Below are positions 16,492 to 24,878 of a stretch of DNA of 39,206 nucleotides, piece after piece. This DNA comes from Oceanobacter kriegii DSM 6294. GTDB taxonomy: Bacteria; Pseudomonadota; Gammaproteobacteria; Pseudomonadales; Oceanobacteraceae. The DNA lies in assembly GCF_000422845.1 (NCBI RefSeq), contig NZ_KE383934.1, positions 145,666 through 184,871 on the forward strand, written 5' to 3'. The notes under the pieces were generated by a model that saw nothing but the letters and a program-made list of their open reading frames with translations, had not been told where the DNA came from and did not search any database. The position numbers and the translations under genes were made by a program. Each line of letters begins with the position of its first letter. The stretch's first letter is position 1.

Positions 16492-16986
16492 TCAGATATC
16501 CGGCCGGCCCATGATCACCAGCTCATCCTGGTCTGCCAGTCGTTCGGCGTGTTGCTGCACGCGGTTGCCGTCGGCCAGCATCAGCGCCGGGGCCAGTTCG
16601 GCCAGCGGCAGCATGACAAACAGGCGGTTGGTCATTTCAACATGCGGTACGGTCAAGCGCTCGCTGTCGATGCGCTGGTCTTCGACCAGCAGGATATCAA
16701 TGTCCAGTGTGCGCTCACCCCAGCGGCGCAGTCTCACCCGACCCTGACCATTTTCGATGGCTTGCAGGGCGTCCAGCAAGTCCAGCGGCTGAAGGTCGGT
16801 CTCGATGCAGGCAACGGCATTCACATAGTCCGGCTGATCCTGTGGGCCAACCGGCTTGCTGCGATAAAACGACGAGTAGCCCGTCAGGGTGATATCCGGG
16901 TGCTGTTTGAGGGTTTCCAGACAGGTTTGCAGCTGCTGGTATGGCTCATTGAGGTTGGCACCCAGCCCGAGGTAACAGCGGATCAT
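16492..16986 (-). CDS. folK: 2-amino-4-hydroxy-6-hydroxymethyldihydropteridine diphosphokinase
   Basis: Pyrophosphorylates the pterin precursor of folate. The 164-residue protein has the YLGLGANL start, the FYRSKPVGPQDQPDYVNAVA segment and the RRWGERTLDIDILL signature with the catalytic aspartates. The start overlaps the end of pcnB by four bases (ATGA), the same pcnB-folK coupling known in other gammaproteobacteria. Confidence 0.96.
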   Translation of the reverse strand: MIRCYLGLGANLNEPYQQLQTCLETLKQHPDITLTGYSSFYRSKPVGPQDQPDYVNAVACIETDLQPLDLLDALQAIENGQGRVRLRRWGERTLDIDILLVEDQRIDSERLTVPHVEMTNRLFVMLPLAELAPALMLADGNRVQQHAERLADQDELVIMGRPDI

Positions 16987-18434
16987 CCGTTGTTGCGCCG
17001 GGAGCTGCTGGAACGACGGCTACTACGGCGCTTGCGCGATGGACGGCGCTCGTCGCGGCCACTGCTTTCGTGGTTGCTGCCTTCGCGGCTGCTGCTGTTA
17101 CCACTGTCGCCACGGCTTGAACCACTGGAGTTGCGTTCGGAACGACGAGAGCGACGCGGCTGTTCCGGTACGCCTTCCTGTTCCTGATAGTCGGTCCACC
17201 ACTGGCCGATGTTATCCAGCTGTTCGCCAGACTGCTCGCGCAGTAGCAGGAAATCGTAGGAGGCACGGAAGCGCGGGTGTGACAGCAAATCCTTGCACTT
17301 GCGGCTGTTGATTCGTGGCAGGCGCAGCTGCATTTCCCAGATTTCCCGCATCGGGATCGAGAAACGTTTTGGAATGGCGGTGTGGCGAATCTGCTGAGCC
17401 AGCACGCGGTCGGCGGCTTTCTGCATCGCCGGGTGTGGCGGCAAACCGGAGGCTTCGAATTCCTTGCGCACACGTTCAACCTGAGGCCACAAGAGTGCGG
17501 CAAGGAAGAAATACGGTGTTACCGATTTACCCTGACCAATGCGGGCATCGGTGTTACGCATGGTGTTTTCGGCCAGTGAGCGGGCAAATTCGTCTTCCTG
17601 CAAGCACTGCTCGGTGCCCGGGAAAATATGCCCGAACAGCTGATAGTCACGCAGCAGTTGCAGGGTGTCGAGCGCCTTGCCAGCCAGAAACAGCTTCAGG
17701 CATTCATCGAACATGCGTGCGGCTGGTACTTGCAGCAGCAAAGGTGCCAGCGCAGGAATTGGGGCTGCGGTTGCAGGAGACAGCTGGAAGCCTTCCAGCT
17801 TGCCCATAAAACGAATGGCACGCAGCATTCGCACCGGGTCTTCGCGATAGCGGGTTTCCGGGTCGCCAATCAAGCGGATTTGACGGTTTTGCAGATCGTG
17901 CCAGCCACCGGCGTAGGCGTACACACCAAAGTCGGCAATGTTGTAGTACAGCGCATTAATGGTGAAGTCACGGCGCATGGCGTCTTCTTCACGAGTGCCG
18001 TACACGTTGTCGCGCAGGATCATGCCCTGGTCACCGGTGGCAGCAACCTTGTCGGAGTGCTGTTCGGTTGGCGGTGCGCGGAAGGTGGCAACCTCAATGA
18101 CTTCACGGCCAAATACCACATGAACCAGCTTGAAGCGGCGGCCAATCAAACGCGAGTTGCGGAACAGCTTGTTGACTTGCTCCGGGGTCGCGTTGGTTGC
18201 CACATCAAAATCTTTCGGTGACATACCCAGCAGGGTGTCACGCACGCCACCACCAACGAGCAGGGCTTCGTAACCGGCGTTGTGCAGTCGATACAGAACC
18301 TTCAGCGCGGCATCGCTGATCTGGCTGCGGCTGATGGAATGTTCATCCCGGCTAATGACTTGCAAGGTGTGATCGACCTGCGGCTCGTCGCCCGGCTGAA
18401 AGATGTTTTTGATGAAAGAAGATATTCGCTTCAC
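16983..18434 (-). CDS. pcnB: Poly(A) polymerase I
   Basis: Adds poly(A) tails to RNA 3' ends, which promotes decay of many transcripts and small RNAs. The 483-residue protein has the class II nucleotidyltransferase motif LLVGGGVRDTLLG with the DFD catalytic aspartates D75 and D77. The ALYYNIADFGVYAYAGGWHD and DPVRMLRAIRF signatures follow. The last ~55 residues are a strongly basic Arg/Ser-rich tail, common in PcnB and probably RNA-binding. The start is a GTG. It lies just downstream of the CrcZ-like RNA cluster, as pcnB does next to crcZ in Pseudomonas; the RNA terminator at 18544 separates them. Confidence 0.96.
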   Translation of the reverse strand: MKRISSFIKNIFQPGDEPQVDHTLQVISRDEHSISRSQISDAALKVLYRLHNAGYEALLVGGGVRDTLLGMSPKDFDVATNATPEQVNKLFRNSRLIGRRFKLVHVVFGREVIEVATFRAPPTEQHSDKVAATGDQGMILRDNVYGTREEDAMRRDFTINALYYNIADFGVYAYAGGWHDLQNRQIRLIGDPETRYREDPVRMLRAIRFMGKLEGFQLSPATAAPIPALAPLLLQVPAARMFDECLKLFLAGKALDTLQLLRDYQLFGHIFPGTEQCLQEDEFARSLAENTMRNTDARIGQGKSVTPYFFLAALLWPQVERVRKEFEASGLPPHPAMQKAADRVLAQQIRHTAIPKRFSIPMREIWEMQLRLPRINSRKCKDLLSHPRFRASYDFLLLREQSGEQLDNIGQWWTDYQEQEGVPEQPRRSRRSERNSSGSSRGDSGNSSSREGSNHESSGRDERRPSRKRRSSRRSSSSRRNNG

Positions 18435-18543
18435 TGAGGCTCAGTTGTTTTGTCGCGTAAGAAAGCAGGGAGTTTACCAGTGCAACGGTGAATATTGCCA
18501 ATTGGGAACAGACTAATTGCGACGGTTGGCGGAAGCAGAAAAC

Positions 18544-18569
18544 AAAAAAGCCGCTCGTAGCGGCTTTTG
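18544..18569 (-). terminator. Terminator of CrcZ-like RNA 1
   Basis: GCCGCT (18550–18555) pairs with AGCGGC (18559–18564). On the - strand it is followed by TTTTTT. A T tract exists on the other side too. Confidence 0.92.
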
Positions 18570-18809
18570 TCGGGAGGCCCTTTGTTCTTTTTGTTGTTTT
18601 GTCCCTAACGCTCGGACTGGAGATCCACTCTTTTGAATGTTCAGTACCGCCTGTTTTTATTTTTATCAGCGGTACCAGTCATTCGAAACAGTTGGACGGG
18701 CAAGCCCCTAGTTATTTTTGTTGTATGGGGCAGTGCCGTGACGAGTGCTTGTTATTTTTGTTGTTACTCGTGTTACCGAACCGGTTGTTATTGTTGTTTT
18801 AGGTTCGTG
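18544..18809 (-). ncRNA. crcZ: CrcZ-like sRNA, copy 1 (nearest pcnB)
   Basis: Predicted ~265-nt RNA that sequesters Hfq/Crc and so relieves catabolite repression. It is transcribed leftward from a -24/-12 promoter (18819–18836); the start near 18809 would give 5' GCACGAACC. Five A-rich CA motifs follow in the RNA: AAAACAACAAUAACAAC, GUAACAACAAAAAUAACAAG, AUACAACAAAAAUAAC, GAUAAAAAUAAAAAC and AAAACAACAAAAAGAACAAA. It ends with the terminator at 18544–18569. Position between cbrB and pcnB, promoter class and five CA motifs match what is known of Pseudomonas CrcZ. Primary sequence outside the motifs is not obviously alike, as is usual. This is the longest and most CrcZ-like of the three tandem copies. 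Confidence 0.88.
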
Positions 18810-18818
18810 CCAGAGTTA

Positions 18819-18836
18819 TTGCCAGTAGCGTGCCAA
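18819..18836 (-). promoter_or_regulatory. Sigma-54 promoter of CrcZ-like RNA 1
   Basis: On the - strand TTGGCACGCTACTGGCAA has GG at the -24 position and GC at the -12 position exactly ten bases apart, with the consensus TGGCACG around -24. Confidence 0.85.
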
Positions 18837-18885
18837 AAAACAAAAAACTATATAAAACAATGACTTATGGTTTTTCGTTGGCCCG

Positions 18886-18957
18886 TGTTACGTCGTTGTG
18901 GCCTGATTTGTTACCTTTTTTTGGGGTGTGGGGTAACAGCGGCGGTAGCAGGTAACA
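18886..18957. promoter_or_regulatory. Putative CbrB enhancer sites upstream of RNA 1
   Basis: Two TGTTAC (18886–18891, 18909–18914) face two GTAACA (18933–18938, 18952–18957), forming an interrupted palindrome about 60–130 bases upstream of the sigma-54 promoter. TGTTAC/GTAACA pairs are, from memory, the half-sites of CbrB at crc-type RNA promoters. The last one runs into CTTTGGG. Confidence 0.7.
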
Positions 18958-19070
18958 CTTTGGGCCAAAGGCAACCAACCGTGCCAGCCGTGTGAATTTT
19001 TGGAACTTTGGGTGGAGAACTTTGGTGTTGTCTCCTACGAGCTTCTTAAAAACTCGGTACCCACTTTGGA

Positions 19071-19210
19071 TAACAGGGCGATTCTGAGTCACGAAGTGCT
19101 AACAGGAGACGTAGAGCTAGCAGAAGACGTAGAAGCAGGAGCAGTAACAGCAGCGGTTACAGAAAGAGTAACAACAGGGGTAACAAAAGTAGCAGCGCTT
19201 CGGTAACAAC
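19071..19210. other. Cluster of TAACA/GTAACA half-sites between RNA 1 and RNA 2
   Basis: This stretch, between the RNA 1 enhancer sites and the RNA 2 terminator, carries TAACAG or TAACA repeatedly: at 19071, 19100, 19145, 19169, 19180 and 19203, with a GGTTAC at 19154. No promoter, hairpin or CA-rich transcript is evident. It may be extra enhancer DNA or the remains of a lost fourth unit. No gene is seen. Confidence 0.4.
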
Positions 19211-19357
19211 AAATGCAGGGGGAGGCTGTTCTTTGAGCTTTCAAACTATCCGCGTGAAAGTAAGGGTAAAGTACGGGGAAGTTTGCCTCTGGCGAATAGA
19301 AGGCTCGACGTGCAGCTGGCTGAGAAAAGGATGAAACCTGGGAAAGTGGTGCTCCAG

Positions 19358-19390
19358 AAATAACAAACCCCGTGTGGTGTGCACGGGGTT
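19358..19390 (-). terminator. Terminator of CrcZ-like RNA 2
   Basis: A nine-base stem AACCCCGTG (19366–19374) pairs with CACGGGGTT (19382–19390), followed on the - strand by TTTGTTATTT. Confidence 0.85.
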
Positions 19391-19503
19391 CTGGAGAGAG
19401 CAAAGAGTCTTCGTTTTCCAGGCCAATTGTTATTTTTATTGGTGGCCCGTGGCTGCTTGGCTCCTTGTTATTTTTATTTGGTGCTGTGCAGCTCTTGTTC
19501 TTG
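19358..19503 (-). ncRNA. CrcZ-like sRNA, copy 2 (middle)
   Basis: A predicted ~145-nt leftward RNA. It starts near 19503, 12 bases past a -24/-12 promoter, and ends at the terminator 19358–19390. CA-rich motifs in the RNA: CAAGAACAAG, CCAAAUAAAAAUAACAAGG and CCAAUAAAAAUAACAAUUGG, separated by GC-rich stretches. It is shorter than copy 1 with about three motifs, so it would hold fewer Hfq/Crc units. It has its own enhancer sites, which suggests independent CbrB-controlled transcription rather than processing from a long RNA. The role is inferred from promoter class, motif content and location next to cbrAB. Confidence 0.8.
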
Positions 19504-19512
19504 AATTAGTTA

Positions 19513-19530
19513 TTGCCATCCCCGTGCCAA
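19513..19530 (-). promoter_or_regulatory. Sigma-54 promoter of CrcZ-like RNA 2
   Basis: On the - strand TTGGCACGGGGATGGCAA has GG and GC ten bases apart. The -24 element is identical to that of RNA 1. Confidence 0.85.
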
Positions 19531-19591
19531 AAATGAAAAAACCTTTAAAAACAGTGGTTTATGTTTTTCGCGTTTACGCTTTGAAGGGTTT

Positions 19592-19643
19592 TGTTACCAA
19601 GCCCGAAACTTTGCGTAACACTTTGGGGGTGTGCCAGGTAACA
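19592..19643. promoter_or_regulatory. Putative CbrB enhancer sites upstream of RNA 2
   Basis: TGTTAC (19592–19597) faces GTAACA (19615–19620), with a second GTAACA at 19638–19643; the spacers are 17 bases each. The middle site runs into CTTTGGGGG as in unit 1. Confidence 0.7.
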
Positions 19644-19911
19644 GAGCGGGCTGAAAAGTAGCACTTTGGTACAAGTCATTTCGTGTCGGTGGGCGAAGGC
19701 ATAGCCAGAAGCAGTGAATAGTCGCTTGGTAACTGATACATGACCCGGGAGCGTTGATGTTTGGTTGTGCAGTGCCCGGCTTGGTGTGGTCTGAATGACG
19801 TGGGTTAAGTGGTTTTGACCTGGATTTGTCTGAAGCGGAAGGATGAAAGGTTGGGGGCGTTCGGTTTAGGCTGCTAGCTGAGGCTGAAAGTACTCTGAAT
19901 TTTCAATCCCC

Positions 19912-20071
19912 CAGAAAGAACAAACCCCGGGTCCTTTCGGAGCCGGGGTTTGCGAGAGAGTTTTGACTTTTTCTTGTTCTGACACTCGGCACTGCGATCT
20001 TGTTTTTGTTTGGCAGCGCTAGTCGGTTGGCTGGGTATTATTTTTATTTCCAGGAACCGCTCTTGTTGTAC
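19912..20071 (-). ncRNA. CrcZ-like sRNA, copy 3 (nearest cbrB)
   Basis: A predicted ~160-nt leftward RNA from about 20071 to the terminator at 19914–19951. CA-rich motifs in the RNA: GUACAACAAGAG, GGAAAUAAAAAUAAUACC, CCAAACAAAAACAAGAUC and CAGAACAAGAAAAAGUC, about four in all. It has its own sigma-54 promoter and TGTTAC/GTAACA sites. It lies directly downstream of cbrB, separated by a long inverted repeat. Like the middle copy it is shorter than CrcZ of Pseudomonas. Confidence 0.8.
19914..19951 (-). terminator. Terminator of CrcZ-like RNA 3
   Basis: AAACCCCGG (19922–19930) pairs with CCGGGGTTT (19943–19951). On the - strand it is followed by GTTCTTTC. Confidence 0.82.
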
Positions 20072-20080
20072 GTGAATGAT

Positions 20081-20098
20081 TAGCTATTTGTGTGCCAA
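20081..20098 (-). promoter_or_regulatory. Sigma-54 promoter of CrcZ-like RNA 3
   Basis: On the - strand TTGGCACACAAATAGCTA has GG and GC ten bases apart. The -24 box TTGGCAC is shared with the other two units; the -12 side is more diverged. Confidence 0.8.
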
Positions 20099-20204
20099 TT
20101 CTGTTTCTAAACTTACAAAACAATAAAAAACTCAATAAAAACAACGACTTATGGTTTTAAATTTGAATGGTTAGAAAAATTCATCATTTGTGTTTGGTCC
20201 GAAA

Positions 20205-20282
20205 TGTTACCGAAAGTGTTACCTGGGGTAGCGCATGGATTGCTACTTTGGGTGTATGTGGGTAACACCTTGTGGCGTAACA
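20205..20282. promoter_or_regulatory. Putative CbrB enhancer sites upstream of RNA 3
   Basis: Two TGTTAC (20205–20210, 20217–20222) face two GTAACA (20262–20267, 20277–20282), with TACTTTGGG at 20244–20252 in between. Confidence 0.68.
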
Positions 20283-20454
20283 CTTTTTGAAGTCCACGGA
20301 TCTAACGTGGGTTAGTCCCTTGGTAAGAGGCTTGTGATGAGAAACTTTTGACGAGGGGCCTGTTGTGAATAGCTTCTGGTGAGGAGCCTTTGGTTAGACG
20401 CTTCAGGAAAGAGGATTGGGAAGAACCCGCGAGTGGGGAGCCGTACGGGAGGTA

Positions 20455-20489
20455 CTGAATAACCGATAGGTGTTCTATCGGTTATTCAG
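20455..20489. terminator. Perfect 15-base inverted repeat after cbrB
   Basis: CTGAATAACCGATAG (20455–20469) and CTATCGGTTATTCAG (20475–20489) form a perfect stem with a five-base loop, starting 26 bases past the cbrB stop on the - strand. No T tract follows, so it may act as an mRNA 3'-end barrier rather than a classical terminator. Confidence 0.6.
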
Positions 20490-20514
20490 AGCGGGCAGAG
20501 CAGTTACCGAGGTG

Positions 20515-21960
20515 TTACTTCTTCTTGCGAGGAATACCCAGCCGTTGGCGGCGTTCCCACAGGCTCTTGCGCGAAATGCCCAGTTTTCGAGCCAGATCGG
20601 TTTCGGTCATGCGGCTTTCGTTATCCAACACAAAGTGCACGAAGTAATCGTCCAGCGACAGGTCGCCCTGGGCTTGCTGCGGGTTGCTCTCGGGCTCCGG
20701 AGCATTGTTGTTGTCGACCAGGTTTTCACGCATGGCTTCGCTGATGTAGCGGTCTGGTGACAGGTCGATGCCTAACAGGTCGGCGCTGATCTCGTCGTCG
20801 TCGGCCAAAATCACCGCACGTTCAACGGCATTTTCCAGCTCACGCACGTTACCCGGCCACTGGTACTGACGAATGGCGTTAACGGCAAAGGCGTCGAACT
20901 GCATGGGCGGCTGGTTCATGCGCTGACAGGCGCGAGCCAGCATGTAATTGGCCAGCTCGACCACGTCTTCGCCACGGTCGCGCAGCGGTGGCAGGGTCAG
21001 TTCAACGACGTTCAGGCGGTAGTACAAATCCTCACGGAACTCGCCATTGGCGGCCATTTCCTTGAGGTTACGGTGGGTAGCAGCAATCAGACGCACATCC
21101 ACTTTGATGCTTTGCACAGCGCCGACTCGGCGAATCTCACTTTCCTGTAACACCCGTAAGAGACGCGCTTGGGCTTCCAGTGGCAGTTCGCCAATTTCAT
21201 CCAGAAACAGGGTGCCACCATTGGCGGCTTCTACCAGGCCCTGACGCTGGGCGGCAGCGCCGGTAAAGGCGCCTTTTTCATGGCCGAACAATTCGGATTC
21301 GAGCAGGGTTTCTGGAATAGCGGCACAGTTTACCGAAATCAACTGGGCACCCTGGCGGCGGCTTTGTTCGTGCAAGGCGCGGGCAACCAGCTCTTTACCA
21401 GTACCGGATTCGCCATGAATCAGTACGGTGGCGTCGGTTGGTGCAACCTTGTTGATTTTACGAAACAGCGCCTGCATGGCATCGCAACTGCCGATGATGC
21501 CATTGCCATTTTGGTCAGCAGGTTTGCTGGCACCGCTATTGGTTGCAGCGGCGGCAGCCGGGCTGGCCTGGCTGTCGGCCTGGGCTTCGTTCATGCGCGC
21601 GGCCGGGTCGATACGCGGCTGGGCAAGAATCTTCTTCACGGCCTCAACCAGTTCGGTGTGATCGAACGGCTTGGCGATGTATTCCACGGCGCCCATTTTC
21701 ATGGCGTCTACGGCAGAACGCAGGCTGGCATAACTGGTCATGATCAGCACCGGGGTGCTGCCTGCCAGTTCAATCAGATCGGTACCTTGACCGCCCGGCA
21801 AACGCAGGTCGGTGATGACCAGATCGTATTCTGGCAATTTGTGCTCACGAGCAGCATCGATGCTATCGACATCCGTCACTTCAAAATTGTGGCGTTGCAG
21901 CAGGCGGCGAACAGACTGACGAATGATGGCTTCATCTTCGACAACCAGAATACGACTCAT
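20515..21960 (-). CDS. cbrB: CbrB, sigma-54-dependent response regulator
   Basis: An NtrC-family activator of carbon/nitrogen use, paired with CbrA. 481 residues: receiver domain with acidic pocket E8/D9, phosphorylatable D51 in VITDLRLPG and K97. The AAA+ domain has Walker A GESGTGKE (183–190), the sigma-54-contacting GAFTGA (230–235) and Walker [13 protein letters not shown]. The C-terminal Fis-type helix-turn-helix is [20 protein letters not shown]. The intact GAFTGA loop fits direct activation of the three -24/-12 promoters just downstream. Its ATG overlaps the cbrA stop (ATGA). Confidence 0.96.
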
Positions 21961-24878
21961 AGATTCTCTTCCATCCTGTTATCCGGCATGTAGCGAGGGA
22001 GACTGACTTTAACACAAGTGCCGCCCTCGTCATCCAGCGGGCTGATGATCTGCACCTGCCCATAATGTTCTTCAATGATGCTGTACACCAGTGCCAGCCC
22101 AAGGCCGGTGCCTTTGCCCACTTCCTTGGTAGTGAAGAAGGGCTCGAACACCCGCTCCTGCACCTCAGCAGGAATGCCATGGCCCTGATCGACAACGCGC
22201 AGGGTCACCTGATGCTGGTCAGCATCGGCGCTGGCGTTGATCTGTTGACCGGGTTGGCTGGCATCGCGGGCGTTGCTGAACAGGTTGACGAACACCTGTA
22301 CCAGTCGTTGCGAGTCACCAATCACCAGCAGGTCCTGCGGGCACTGGTTTACAAAGGCGATGTCCTGACTGCGCTTGCTTAAACGCAGTAGCTGCATGGC
22401 GTCTTCGATGCACTGATACAGATTGACTTCTTCGTGCTCGGTGCTGTGGTTTCCAGCGTGAGCGAAGTTCATCATCGACTGCAAAATGCGGCTTACCCGT
22501 TGGGTTTGCTCGCGTATTTGCTGGCCAATTTCAATCAGCTCGGGATTGTCAGTTTCGTATTCAATGCCCTGAGCCAGACAGTCGATGCCGGTGATCGGGT
22601 TACCAATTTCATGGGCCACGCCCGCCGCCAGCCGACCAATGGATGCCAATCGCTCGCTGTGAATCAGCTCGCGCTCCAGCAACTGGCTGTCGGTTTGGTC
22701 TTCCAGCAACAGCACTGTGCCTTCTGGCTGGCCGTTGGCGCTCTGGATGATCGACTTATGCAGTGTATACCAATGGGGGCGGGCACCCAGGTCGACACGC
22801 TTTTTGTGCTCGTGCAAGGTCGAGCCTCTGATAAAACGACCGAGCAGTTCGCCCCAGGGGGCAGGCAAATGGTCGACCAAGGTACCGGACACCCGTTCGG
22901 CGGTGAGTCCGGTCATTTCGACCATAGCCCGGTTCCACAGCAGGATTTCACCGTCTTCTGCCAGAGAGCATGCGCCCAGTGGTAGTCGCTCCAGTGTTTG
23001 ACGGTGGAATCGGCGCAGATGATCCAGCTCGCCAGCCAGCCCCGACAAGCGATCGTTGAAGCCTTCCAGACGTTGTTCAATCAGGTAAATGTCGTTGGAC
23101 AGTGGCGGCCCGTCCTGCAATGGCAGGTAGCGGCGAATAATGTCCTGCGACACGGTAGGGCCAAGCAGGTTGGCAAGGTTGGCTTCCAGTCGCACCCGCA
23201 GCCGACGCAGTTCGTGTGGGCGGTCTTCATACCCCGGCAAGCCGAGGTCTTTCAGCGCCTGATGCACTTCGCGTTCGGCCATATAGCGGCCCAATGGTCG
23301 GGACAGCGCCAGAATCGCATCGTTGGAGTTTTCTGCTTCCAACAGTTGCATGCTGGGGCGCTGGGCGGCAATCACACAGGCTTCGGCGGTACTGAGCTCA
23401 ACGTCGGTCGGTCGGCGCAGTTTGCTGACTACAAAAAATAGCCCGAGGTTCGCCATCACACTGGTCAATGCGATGTGATACCAGTTGCCCTCATTGGGCA
23501 CTGCCAGCCAGTTCAGGTAAGGGGTTTTATCAAACAGGAACGGCAAAAACAGTCCCATCAGCCAAATGGCCATGCCCGCGCTCAAACCAATCAGGAAGCC
23601 CGGTTTGGATGCGCCGCGCCAATACAGCAAGCCGGCAATGCCTGGCAAAAACTGCATGGCCGCGCCACAGGCCAGAATGCCCAGTCGATTGATGTCCAGA
23701 TCGTTGGAAAACACACTGTAGAACACCATCGCGGCGGTCAGGATGCAGAGGATCAGGATGCGGCGGGTCCACAGCAGCCAACGGTAGAAGTCCTGTTGTG
23801 GAGTCGGCTGGTAATTGGGGAACAGCAGGTGATTCAGCAGCATGGCGGAAATGGCCAGTGTCATCTGAATGCTGACACCGGTGGCAGCAGACACCCCGCC
23901 GAGGAACACCATCAGGGCGATGGCGCGATTGTCGGTATCCATGCCCAGCGCCAGCGAAAAGTACTCCGCCGGGGCAGATTGCCCGGTGATCACCCCGGAC
24001 CAAAGCAACGGCACTACGCTGATCGACATCGCCAGCAAAATCAGCGGGAAGGCCCAGCTGGCCAGACGCAAGGCGCGGTTACTGACGTTTTCGGTAAAGG
24101 TAATGTGGAATGTATGTGGCATTGCCACGGTAATGGCCAGACACATGATCAGCAGCGCCAGCCAGGAGCCATTTGGCGGAGCTGCCGGTCGTTCAAGCAG
24201 GTAGTCGTGAGCGGAGCTGAGCCAGCTGCCACCAAACGTGGCTTCGGGTAACACGTTGAACACCAGAATGGCACATAGGGCCATCACCGCGACCAGCTTG
24301 ACCAAGGACTCCAGCGCCAGGCTGAACACCAGCCCTTCGTGGTTTTCCCTCGGGGTCATCTGGCGGGCACCGAACATTATCGTCAGCAGCAGGATCACCA
24401 CCGCATACCCCAGCGCCAGTCCTTGCTTGGGGGCTTCCGGTGCCAACATGCTCATGGTGTCGGCAACCGCCATGATTTGCAGCGTCAGCAGCGGTAACAC
24501 CACCCCTAGCATGCACAAACTGACCAGAATACCGGCTGCCTTGGAGCGATAGCGGAAGGCCAGCAAGTCGGCTAGCGAGTTGAGCTGATAGCGCCGGGTA
24601 ATCCGCAAAATGGGCCGCAGCAGCACCGGTGTTAACAGGAAGGCCCCGGCCAGACCGCCGAAATACGCGAGATAGCCGTAACCATAAAGCTCGGCCAAAG
24701 CGATGCTGCCGTAGTAACTCCAGGCGCTGGCGAAAACCCCCAGCGACAGCATGTACACAACCGGCTGCTGCACCCAACGGCGGGGCACCCAGCCTTTTTC
24801 AACGGCATAGGCACTGAAGTACAGCAGTGACAGATAACCAACCAGAATGAAGCAGAGCAGGCCTAGGCTGAAGGTCAT
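21957..24878 (-). CDS. cbrA: CbrA, transporter-fused sensor histidine kinase
   Basis: An inner-membrane sensor kinase of 973 residues, close to Pseudomonas CbrA in size. The N-terminal ~490 residues are a sodium/solute-symporter-like domain with about 13 membrane helices, starting [20 protein letters not shown]; CbrA homologues use this to transport or sense histidine. A cytoplasmic linker and a PAS domain follow ([17 protein letters not shown], near 640). The HisKA domain has the phosphorylated histidine at about H756 ([12 protein letters not shown]), then the ATPase N, G1 and G2 boxes ([27 protein letters not shown]). It is cotranscribed with cbrB. GTAACA sites lie upstream of the start. 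Confidence 0.96.

Follow-up and report, generated by a model that had tools for sequence, protein, structure and literature searches.

The gap between cbrB and pcnB in the marine bacterium Oceanobacter kriegii DSM 6294, a member of the Thalassolituus family, very probably holds three separate small RNA genes that act like Pseudomonas CrcZ. These would be tandem duplicates, driven by CbrB, IHF and sigma-54, whose RNAs serve as decoys for Hfq and Crc. All positions given here refer to the window, the whole stretch of 39,206 nucleotides that was analysed. The gap covers 18435-20514 (2,080 bases), between the end of cbrB at 20515 and the start of pcnB at 18434.

A first-pass annotation had described one module occurring three times on the minus strand of this gap, and had read it as three CrcZ-like genes that would form a graded Hfq/Crc sink. 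The observation itself is confirmed; the interpretation as a whole is partly supported.

Three modules in the cbrB-pcnB gap

The three CrcZ-like genes run in the same direction, and in the order of transcription they are called A (adjoining cbrB), B and C (adjoining pcnB). Each copy has CbrB-type half-sites, an IHF-type site and a TGGCAC-type sigma-54 element upstream, all recognised by consensus match, then CA motifs, and finally a terminator-like hairpin with a T-rich tail (Table 1). The AT-rich conserved stretch noted earlier is present and fits an IHF site. According to excerpts of PMC6296734, the crcZ and crcY genes of P. putida have CbrB half-sites, IHF, sigma-54 and CA motifs in this same order.

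Table 1 Features of the locus in window coordinates. RNA extents are predictions.
Feature	Position	Strand	Details
cbrA, sensor kinase (PAS, HisKA, HATPase_c)	21957..24878	-	ORF + Pfam
cbrB, sigma-54 response regulator	20515..21960	-	Pfam Response_reg + Sigma54_activat
Copy A, CbrB-type half-sites	20205..20282	-	TGTTAC at 20282, 20267; GTAACA at 20222, 20210
Copy A, IHF-type site	20139..20151	-	8/9 positions; 54 nt before sigma-54 element
Copy A, sigma-54 element TGGCACACAAATAGC	20083..20097	-	motif match
Copy A, predicted RNA, ~160 nt	19912..20071	-	hairpin + tail 19952-19912
Copy A, CA clusters (n=3)	start near 20048, 20010, 19978	-	
Copy B, CbrB-type half-sites	19592..19643	-	TGTTAC at 19643, 19620; GTAACA at 19597
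Copy B, IHF-type site	19549..19561	-	7/9 positions; 32 nt before sigma-54 element
Copy B, sigma-54 element TGGCACGGGGATGGC	19515..19529	-	motif match
Copy B, predicted RNA, ~148 nt	19356..19503	-	hairpin + tail 19391-19356
Copy B, CA clusters (n=3)	near 19502 (weak, at predicted start), 19478, 19440	-	
Copy C, CbrB-type half-sites	18886..18957	-	TGTTAC at 18957, 18938; GTAACA at 18914, 18891
Copy C, IHF-type site	18855..18867	-	8/9 positions; 32 nt before sigma-54 element
Copy C, sigma-54 element TGGCACGCTACTGGC	18821..18835	-	motif match
Copy C (long class), predicted RNA, ~273 nt	18537..18809	-	hairpin + tail 18568-18537
Copy C, CA clusters (n=5)	near 18798, 18765, 18722, 18664, 18598	-	
pcnB, poly(A) polymerase	16983..18434	-	TIGR01942, 507.5 bits, above cut-off

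The predicted starts are those of the first-pass annotation. Its CA counts hold for copies B and C, although one of the three in B is weak; copy A has three rather than four. The copies are diverged paralogues; over 72 nt, B and C share 74% identity in their promoter blocks.

For the count of modules, a TGGCA-type GG-N10-GC element had to be followed by a CA motif within 60 nt. By this rule the minus strand of the gap carries exactly three modules and the plus strand none. In 1,000 dinucleotide shuffles of the gap the mean is 0.028 and the maximum 1, which rules out a chance resemblance of the whole module. The TGTTAC/GTAACA boxes ascribed to each module are likewise real, with 17 half-sites in the gap (shuffle mean 1.38, maximum 6), and sigma-54 elements paired with an IHF site number three (mean 0.01, maximum 1).

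There are 11 CA clusters, against a shuffle mean of 2.66 and a maximum of 8. The opposite strand has 7 under the same loose rule, so the CA motifs are weak evidence by themselves. Judged from the sequence, the weight lies on their position behind promoters. The module search on the opposite strands of all 49 loci gave four matches, of which L149 has two and L160 and L036 have one apiece; the remaining 46 loci gave no match.

None of the seven open reading frames in the gap (61-104 aa) matches Pfam at E 0.01, and a hidden protein gene is rejected, in line with the first-pass annotation.

The genome encodes CbrA, CbrB, Hfq and a Crc-like protein. The cbrB product is 63% identical to that of Pseudomonas fildesensis L031, where cbrB adjoins an Rfam-positive crcZ. 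The name cbrA follows from the position beside cbrB; Pfam reports no SLC5 domain in it at E 0.01. The profile score of hfq is above cut-off. Crc was assigned from the best PDB match, P. aeruginosa Crc (237.5 bits), and in NCBIfam the same protein is exodeoxyribonuclease III (TIGR00633, 184.6 bits, above cut-off).

RNA structure and resemblance to CrcZ

In the predicted ensembles each RNA has several unpaired CA motifs, with 86-92% of CA bases unpaired versus 35-40% of bases elsewhere. The motifs mostly sit in predicted hairpin loops, whose stems diverge while complementarity is kept. On 17 long copies RNAalifold predicted 26 pairs, six of them with changes on both sides, and found one CA hairpin, a conserved stem and the terminator. 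It probably missed the other CA hairpins owing to the high variability of most CA stems, which defeats alignment; a permutation test on the flanks took its place. In eight of eight genera, complementarity between the CA flanks exceeds that of permuted partners, with 0 of 100 or 0 of 200 permutations as low. This test covers 460 of 496 CA sites, the remainder having short flanks; CA counts of copies lacking a called terminator may take in downstream clusters. The constraint acts at the RNA level.

The repeats might instead work at the DNA level, their CbrB sites together serving as a sponge for the regulator. Such a sink would suit 17 half-sites in 2 kb, but it leaves the CA motifs behind promoters and their complementary flanks unexplained, and it is very improbable.

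Similarity to the Rfam CrcZ family (RF01675, cut-off 95 bits) is another matter. The window has no match at cut-off: the best score is 21.5 bits, for copy C only (18599-18800), and for A and B no match is reported at E 10. Control loci score 349.6 (L031) and 272.1 bits (L036). The search of the own genome with this model was positive in no control genome, and carries no weight alone.

The RNA lengths, themselves predicted from predicted ends, all fall short of the roughly 400 nt of the family, whose model has 398 positions. Excerpts of PMC4063720 give 407 nt for P. aeruginosa CrcZ, against only ~160 and 148 nt for the two shorter RNAs here. With only one copy resembling the Rfam model, and that below cut-off, the copies are called CrcZ-like and not members of RF01675. 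The earlier reading thus stands at the sequence level for the crcZ position, the sigma-54 element of each copy, the half-sites and the terminator-like hairpin, and fails at the Rfam cut-off.

A custom model, R1, has 22 matches in the genome at E 0.1 or better, three of which are the array. Copy A scores 37.7 bits, little above promoter-only matches elsewhere (34.3). The other 19 matches score at most 34.3 bits and most span the IHF and sigma-54 part alone; in four, with scores of 13.8-24.3 bits, the match extends as far as the beginning of the CA part. A further copy outside the array is therefore rejected on this search. In one match, C18:37922, a promoter with AACAACAATAAAAGG stands directly before a gene with a weak TRAP small permease match (38.2 bits, cut-off 260); its sequence resembles that of a target more than that of a decoy.

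The CA pattern AAYAAYAAAAATAAC, with one mismatch allowed, has 8 matches in the genome (4 in the array). It is not outstanding genome-wide, because the reversed control has 20.

Relatives and history of the array

The gap was read in 40 of 43 relatives and in the window; G016, G017 and G033, where cbrB lies near a contig end, were omitted. Two to four copies are present in 40 of the 41 family gaps, Thalassolituus oleivorans MIL-1 (G027) having three. Copy counts exclude two weaker matches (score 4; L156, L160). The triplet, which the first-pass annotation thought might show how this RNA family expands, is therefore not peculiar to the Oceanobacter kriegii genome. L032 has neither a module nor pcnB, and the seven outgroup loci have one copy each. 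Pairs in the cbrB-pcnB gap also occur in three genomes of another family. Order-wide scans used stricter filters and name the genomes without a match incompletely.

Copies fall into a short class adjoining cbrB and a long class adjoining pcnB, which differ in half-site order and IHF spacing. The distance from IHF site to sigma-54 element varies in steps of ~10.5 bp, about one DNA turn.

It could be that only the long copy by pcnB works as a CrcZ-like RNA, and that the short copies are decaying duplicates. Half-site positions are indeed more variable in short copies, copy A scores lowest with the custom model, and copy number differs between species. Against this, the first copy keeps its promoter, IHF-type site and CA motifs in all eight genera, the flanks of each of its CA sites 1-4 surpass all 100 permutations in complementarity, and short copies are spread across genera with 71-86% CbrB identity. 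Decay is unlikely.

Even more doubtful is that the short copies are real RNAs with another job, such as mRNA pairing, or answer to another activator such as NtrC. The class differences in half-site order and IHF spacing would fit, as would the further sigma-54 activators encoded in the genome. However, the short copies retain TGTTAC/GTAACA half-sites and CA loops, the parts expected of a decoy, and according to excerpts of PMC4063720 Hfq binds a 151-nt fragment of P. aeruginosa CrcZ that contains three A-rich stretches.

The gap could also be transcribed as a single long RNA that contains the modules, either trailing cbrB or leading into pcnB. All of them point from cbrB to pcnB, and read-through from cbrB into crcZ is described for P. 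putida (excerpts of PMC8871633). However, separate promoter elements and a separate hairpin with T-rich tail belong to every module, and in the relative G036 a rearrangement has parted two copies by ~11.5 kb, with both still recognisable and their promoters kept. We give this single transcript hardly any credence.

The separate genes probably arose by tandem duplication, the short form by cbrB and the long form by pcnB probably being old, with further copies gained or lost by lineage. The best tree for the 40 copies of g1, g2 and g8 sets the last copies apart from all others (support 95/86), but the AU test does not reject a topology in which the g1 copies form one clade (p 0.162). On these sequences the old short/long split is therefore likely, not proven. 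With all 107 copies in the tree, 39 of 102 inner branches stay open, and some g7 copies and outgroups fall among the first copies. In the relative G034 a 490-bp exact repeat spans two copies; expansion there is therefore recent.

Proposed function and known systems

When the preferred carbon source is exhausted, activated CbrB would bind the half-sites upstream of each copy. IHF would bend the DNA, and sigma-54 polymerase would then start each RNA. The A-rich CA motifs, mostly in hairpin loops, would be bound by the distal face of Hfq, with Crc. This would titrate Hfq/Crc away from mRNAs for the uptake and catabolism of second-choice substrates, allowing their translation.

A more tentative idea, which we consider possible and no better, is a geared decoy. 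Short and long RNAs would come from successive promoters, each firing at its own level of active CbrB, and Hfq/Crc would be released stepwise, with the IHF-promoter spacing kept in whole DNA turns. Marine relatives might then tune carbon repression by adding or removing tandem copies, which would differ in dose or threshold.

CsrB/CsrC and RsmY/RsmZ are also decoys that come as more than one RNA, and their repeated hairpin loops titrate the translational repressor CsrA/RsmA. The candidate titrators here share that layout, but the protein and the motif are different; kinship is not claimed.

Pseudomonas CrcZ has the same cbrB-pcnB position, CbrB half-sites, IHF site, sigma-54 promoter, several CA motifs and terminator. 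It differs in being one copy, against two to four in tandem in this family, and the array sequence is too distant for the RF01675 model. Excerpts of PMC8871633 and PMC6296734 present CrcY and CrcX as extra CrcZ-type decoys under CbrB and sigma-54. Unlike the copies here, these second copies lie away from the gap, as the first-pass annotation had said. In f21, which from Rfam scores we infer to be Pseudomonadaceae, Rfam CrcZ matches twice in seven genomes, where the two matches are either on separate contigs or over 1 Mb from each other, and once in nine more. Our literature search found no report of such a CrcZ-like tandem array.

At this one locus the number of decoy genes varies naturally from one to four, so the effect of decoy dose on carbon repression can be asked directly. 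The exact repeat in G034 displays expansion at a recent stage, and the ~10.5 bp steps make a clean prediction on promoter geometry.

CbrAB is described as unique to Pseudomonadaceae in excerpts of a review (PMC8871633). By contrast, a CbrB-type regulator, a CrcZ-like gene and pcnB are also found together in other families, including Halomonas and Gilvimarinus, whose loci the Rfam CrcZ cut-off misses. Gilvimarinus has 11-13 CA clusters behind one promoter.

The cbrB–pcnB gap and its modules

The gap between cbrB and pcnB in Oceanobacter kriegii (4.5 Mb genome) is 2,080 bases long. It holds a genuine and conserved regulatory RNA of a known kind, present in several copies: three CrcZ-like modules, here called A, B and C in order of transcription, which follow each other on the minus strand. 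A Pfam search of the seven open reading frames in the gap gave no match.

Features of the gap, in positions of the window
Feature	Position	Strand	Remark
cbrB	ends 20515	minus	borders gap
Inverted repeat	20455-20489		perfect, 15 bp, follows closely on the stop codon of cbrB; a possible terminator of that gene
Sigma-54 element of A	starts 20097	minus
Sigma-54 element of B	starts 19529	minus
Sigma-54 element of C	starts 18835	minus
pcnB	starts 18434	minus	borders gap

A module is defined by two parts: a GG-N10-GC element of the TGGCA type and, no more than 60 nt behind it, a CA motif, which is an A-rich candidate Hfq/Crc site. Applied to the gap, this yields exactly three matches, which are A, B and C, and none on the opposite strand; no dinucleotide shuffle out of 1,000 yields more than one. 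This bears out the first-pass annotation, which had claimed three tandem modules, each with its own sigma-54 element. The gap has 17 CbrB-type half-sites, where 1.38 are expected, and 11 CA clusters, where 2.66 are expected, both above every shuffle; the same loose rule finds 7 CA clusters on the opposite strand.

In each module, TGTTAC/GTAACA half-sites and an AT-rich block come before the sigma-54 element, behind which lie CA motifs and a hairpin whose tail is T-rich. The AT-rich block agrees with the IHF consensus, read in reverse complement, at 8, 7 and 8 of 9 positions in A, B and C. RNA lengths are predicted at about 160, 148 and 273 nt, with 3, 3 and 5 CA clusters, one of B's being weak and located at the predicted start. 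In P. putida, PMC6296734 describes this order of parts for crcZ and for crcY, which have three CbrB subsites 20-25 bp apart and are assisted by IHF.

Copy number in relatives

The family is marine and includes Thalassolituus. In all 44 of its genomes CbrB is matched at an E value of 1e-150 or lower. The gap was examined in 41 of them, the window plus 40 of its 43 relatives, and 40 hold two to four modules (3, 3, 3, 3, 3, 4 and 2 in the own genus). The comparison with related genomes that had been proposed comes out in favor of the array. The sole exception is G036: one copy stands by cbrB and the long copy lies by pcnB, roughly 11.5 kb off and inverted, so that this is an array split by rearrangement.

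Each of seven outgroup loci with both cbrB and pcnB (Pseudomonas, Serpens, two Gilvimarinus, a Cellvibrionaceae MAG, Litchfieldella and Halomonas) holds a single module; L032, the eighth locus, has no module and no pcnB. Among 390 genomes drawn from across the order, our search model of the module matched 88 at E 1e-10 or better, 15 of them in the family. Tandem copies are listed in 14 of these 15, and in 3 of the 73 matching genomes outside it, all from one other family (f6) and all in the cbrB–pcnB gap.

Counted in the same way, the single CrcZ-like genes of the two Gilvimarinus loci carry 11 and 13 CA clusters, which is another route to many CA sites. Genome G027, probably Thalassolituus oleivorans MIL-1, has an extra model match far from its array (G027:C1:3746922-3747043; 42.5 bits, model positions 12-120). 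A module search of this locus found nothing, so the match may be to the sigma-54 promoter only.

The copy beside cbrB is usually short, with four CA clusters in 22 of 40 cases, five in 9, three in 8 and two in 1. The copy beside pcnB is usually long, with five in 31 of 40, six in 6, four in 2 and two in 1. A conserved stem, TGTTT-GAATG / CATTCAAAAGA, flanks the fourth CA site and occurs only in this last copy in the own genus and two others (g6, g8). The best tree, built on copies from the own genus, g2 and g8, sets the last copies apart from the others (support 95/86); an alternative with all own-genus copies as one clade is not rejected (p 0.162). Genome G034 has two neighboring copies within a 490-bp exact repeat at 537-bp spacing. 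The terminators called for these copies differ; together with the exact repeat, this favors a real duplication of recent date over an error of assembly.

Possible promoter phasing and predicted CA loops

The array offers a testable account of copy number and of promoter phasing. The best IHF-type site was located in each of 100 family copies, and in 95 it fits 8 or 9 of 9 positions. It starts at -32 or -33 in 75 copies; the others fall at -41 to -44 (15 copies), -52 to -55 (6), -63 to -65 (3) and -22 (1), with no starts between these groups. The steps are about one helical turn. Shifted sites are mostly found in first or sole copies (21/25), including copy A of the window, whose site is at -54; since all copies share descent, independent shifts are fewer than these counts.

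In genus g7, to which T. oleivorans belongs, a palindrome TGTCTAT-N4-ATAGACA precedes the sigma-54 element in nine copies from seven genomes, at a constant distance of about 62 nt start to start. It is perhaps the site of a further regulator.

In predicted ensembles, 89%, 86% and 92% of CA bases in A, B and C are unpaired, versus 38%, 40% and 35% of the other bases. Most CA sites form hairpin loops in the minimum-energy folds, the exceptions being B's first site and C's last. Within the family, A-rich loops are nearly invariant and their flanks variable, yet left and right flanks stay complementary. In the own genus (76 of 86 sites testable) the mean duplex energy is -12.2 kcal/mol, versus -8.6 for permuted partners. 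None of 200 permutations was equally low there, none of 200 in the window alone (10 of 11 sites) and none of 100 in each of seven other genera; given that related sequences are not independent, these count as strong signs rather than as exact probabilities. In the seven outgroup copies (47 of 54 sites) the signal points the same way but is weaker, with 36% of sites below -6 kcal/mol versus 87-100% in the family's genera.

Relation to CrcZ and proposed function

The Rfam CrcZ covariance search suggested in the first-pass annotation went against a formal assignment: C scores 21.5 bits against a cut-off of 95, and A and B have no match up to E 10, so the copies are not classed as Rfam CrcZ. The controls from Pseudomonas and Serpens reach 349.6 and 272.1 bits, and ten other loci tested, six from the family, also do not pass. 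The copies are alike in build to CrcZ, but score below the family cut-off. A literature search on CrcZ, its paralogues and duplication, and CrcZ in Halomonas or Oceanospirillales, which covered subscription papers in part, showed no description of a tandem array. The Halomonas and Gilvimarinus loci count against CbrAB being unique to Pseudomonadaceae, as PMC8871633 has it.

The CrcZ locus of Pseudomonas fildesensis also has an Rfam match to the sRNA P36 (L031:6477-6537; 42 bits, cut-off 36), between cbrB and crcZ and immediately upstream of the crcZ promoter. O. kriegii CbrB is 63% identical to the CbrB beside this Rfam-positive crcZ.

In O. kriegii itself, cbrA and cbrB are adjacent, and the Hfq gene is on the same contig as the array. 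A protein encoded beside pyrE is named exodeoxyribonuclease III by NCBIfam. In the PDB it is closest to entries for P. aeruginosa Crc (237.5 and 237.0 bits), followed by 2myi, also named exodeoxyribonuclease III (229.6 bits), and by nucleases at 179.5 bits or less. At positions expected to be catalytic in ExoIII, its residues seem altered, as they are in Crc.

By analogy, A, B and C should work like CrcZ. In P. aeruginosa, according to PMC4063720, Hfq is titrated by CrcZ; the first 151 nt of this RNA contain three A-rich stretches and give three Hfq shifts. With CbrB active, the three RNAs would jointly present up to 11 sites, and could pull Hfq/Crc off target mRNAs.

One gene, weakly matched to a TRAP small permease (locus G000:C18:35500-40500, gene start at 2418 of the locus, minus strand), has a sigma-54 promoter and the CA motif AACAACAATAAAAGG directly before its start codon, and from its sequence looks like a candidate Hfq/Crc target. 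The four CA-pattern matches that this genome has outside the array (L175-L178), each with an ATG at most about 35 nt downstream, are possible Hfq/Crc-controlled leaders.
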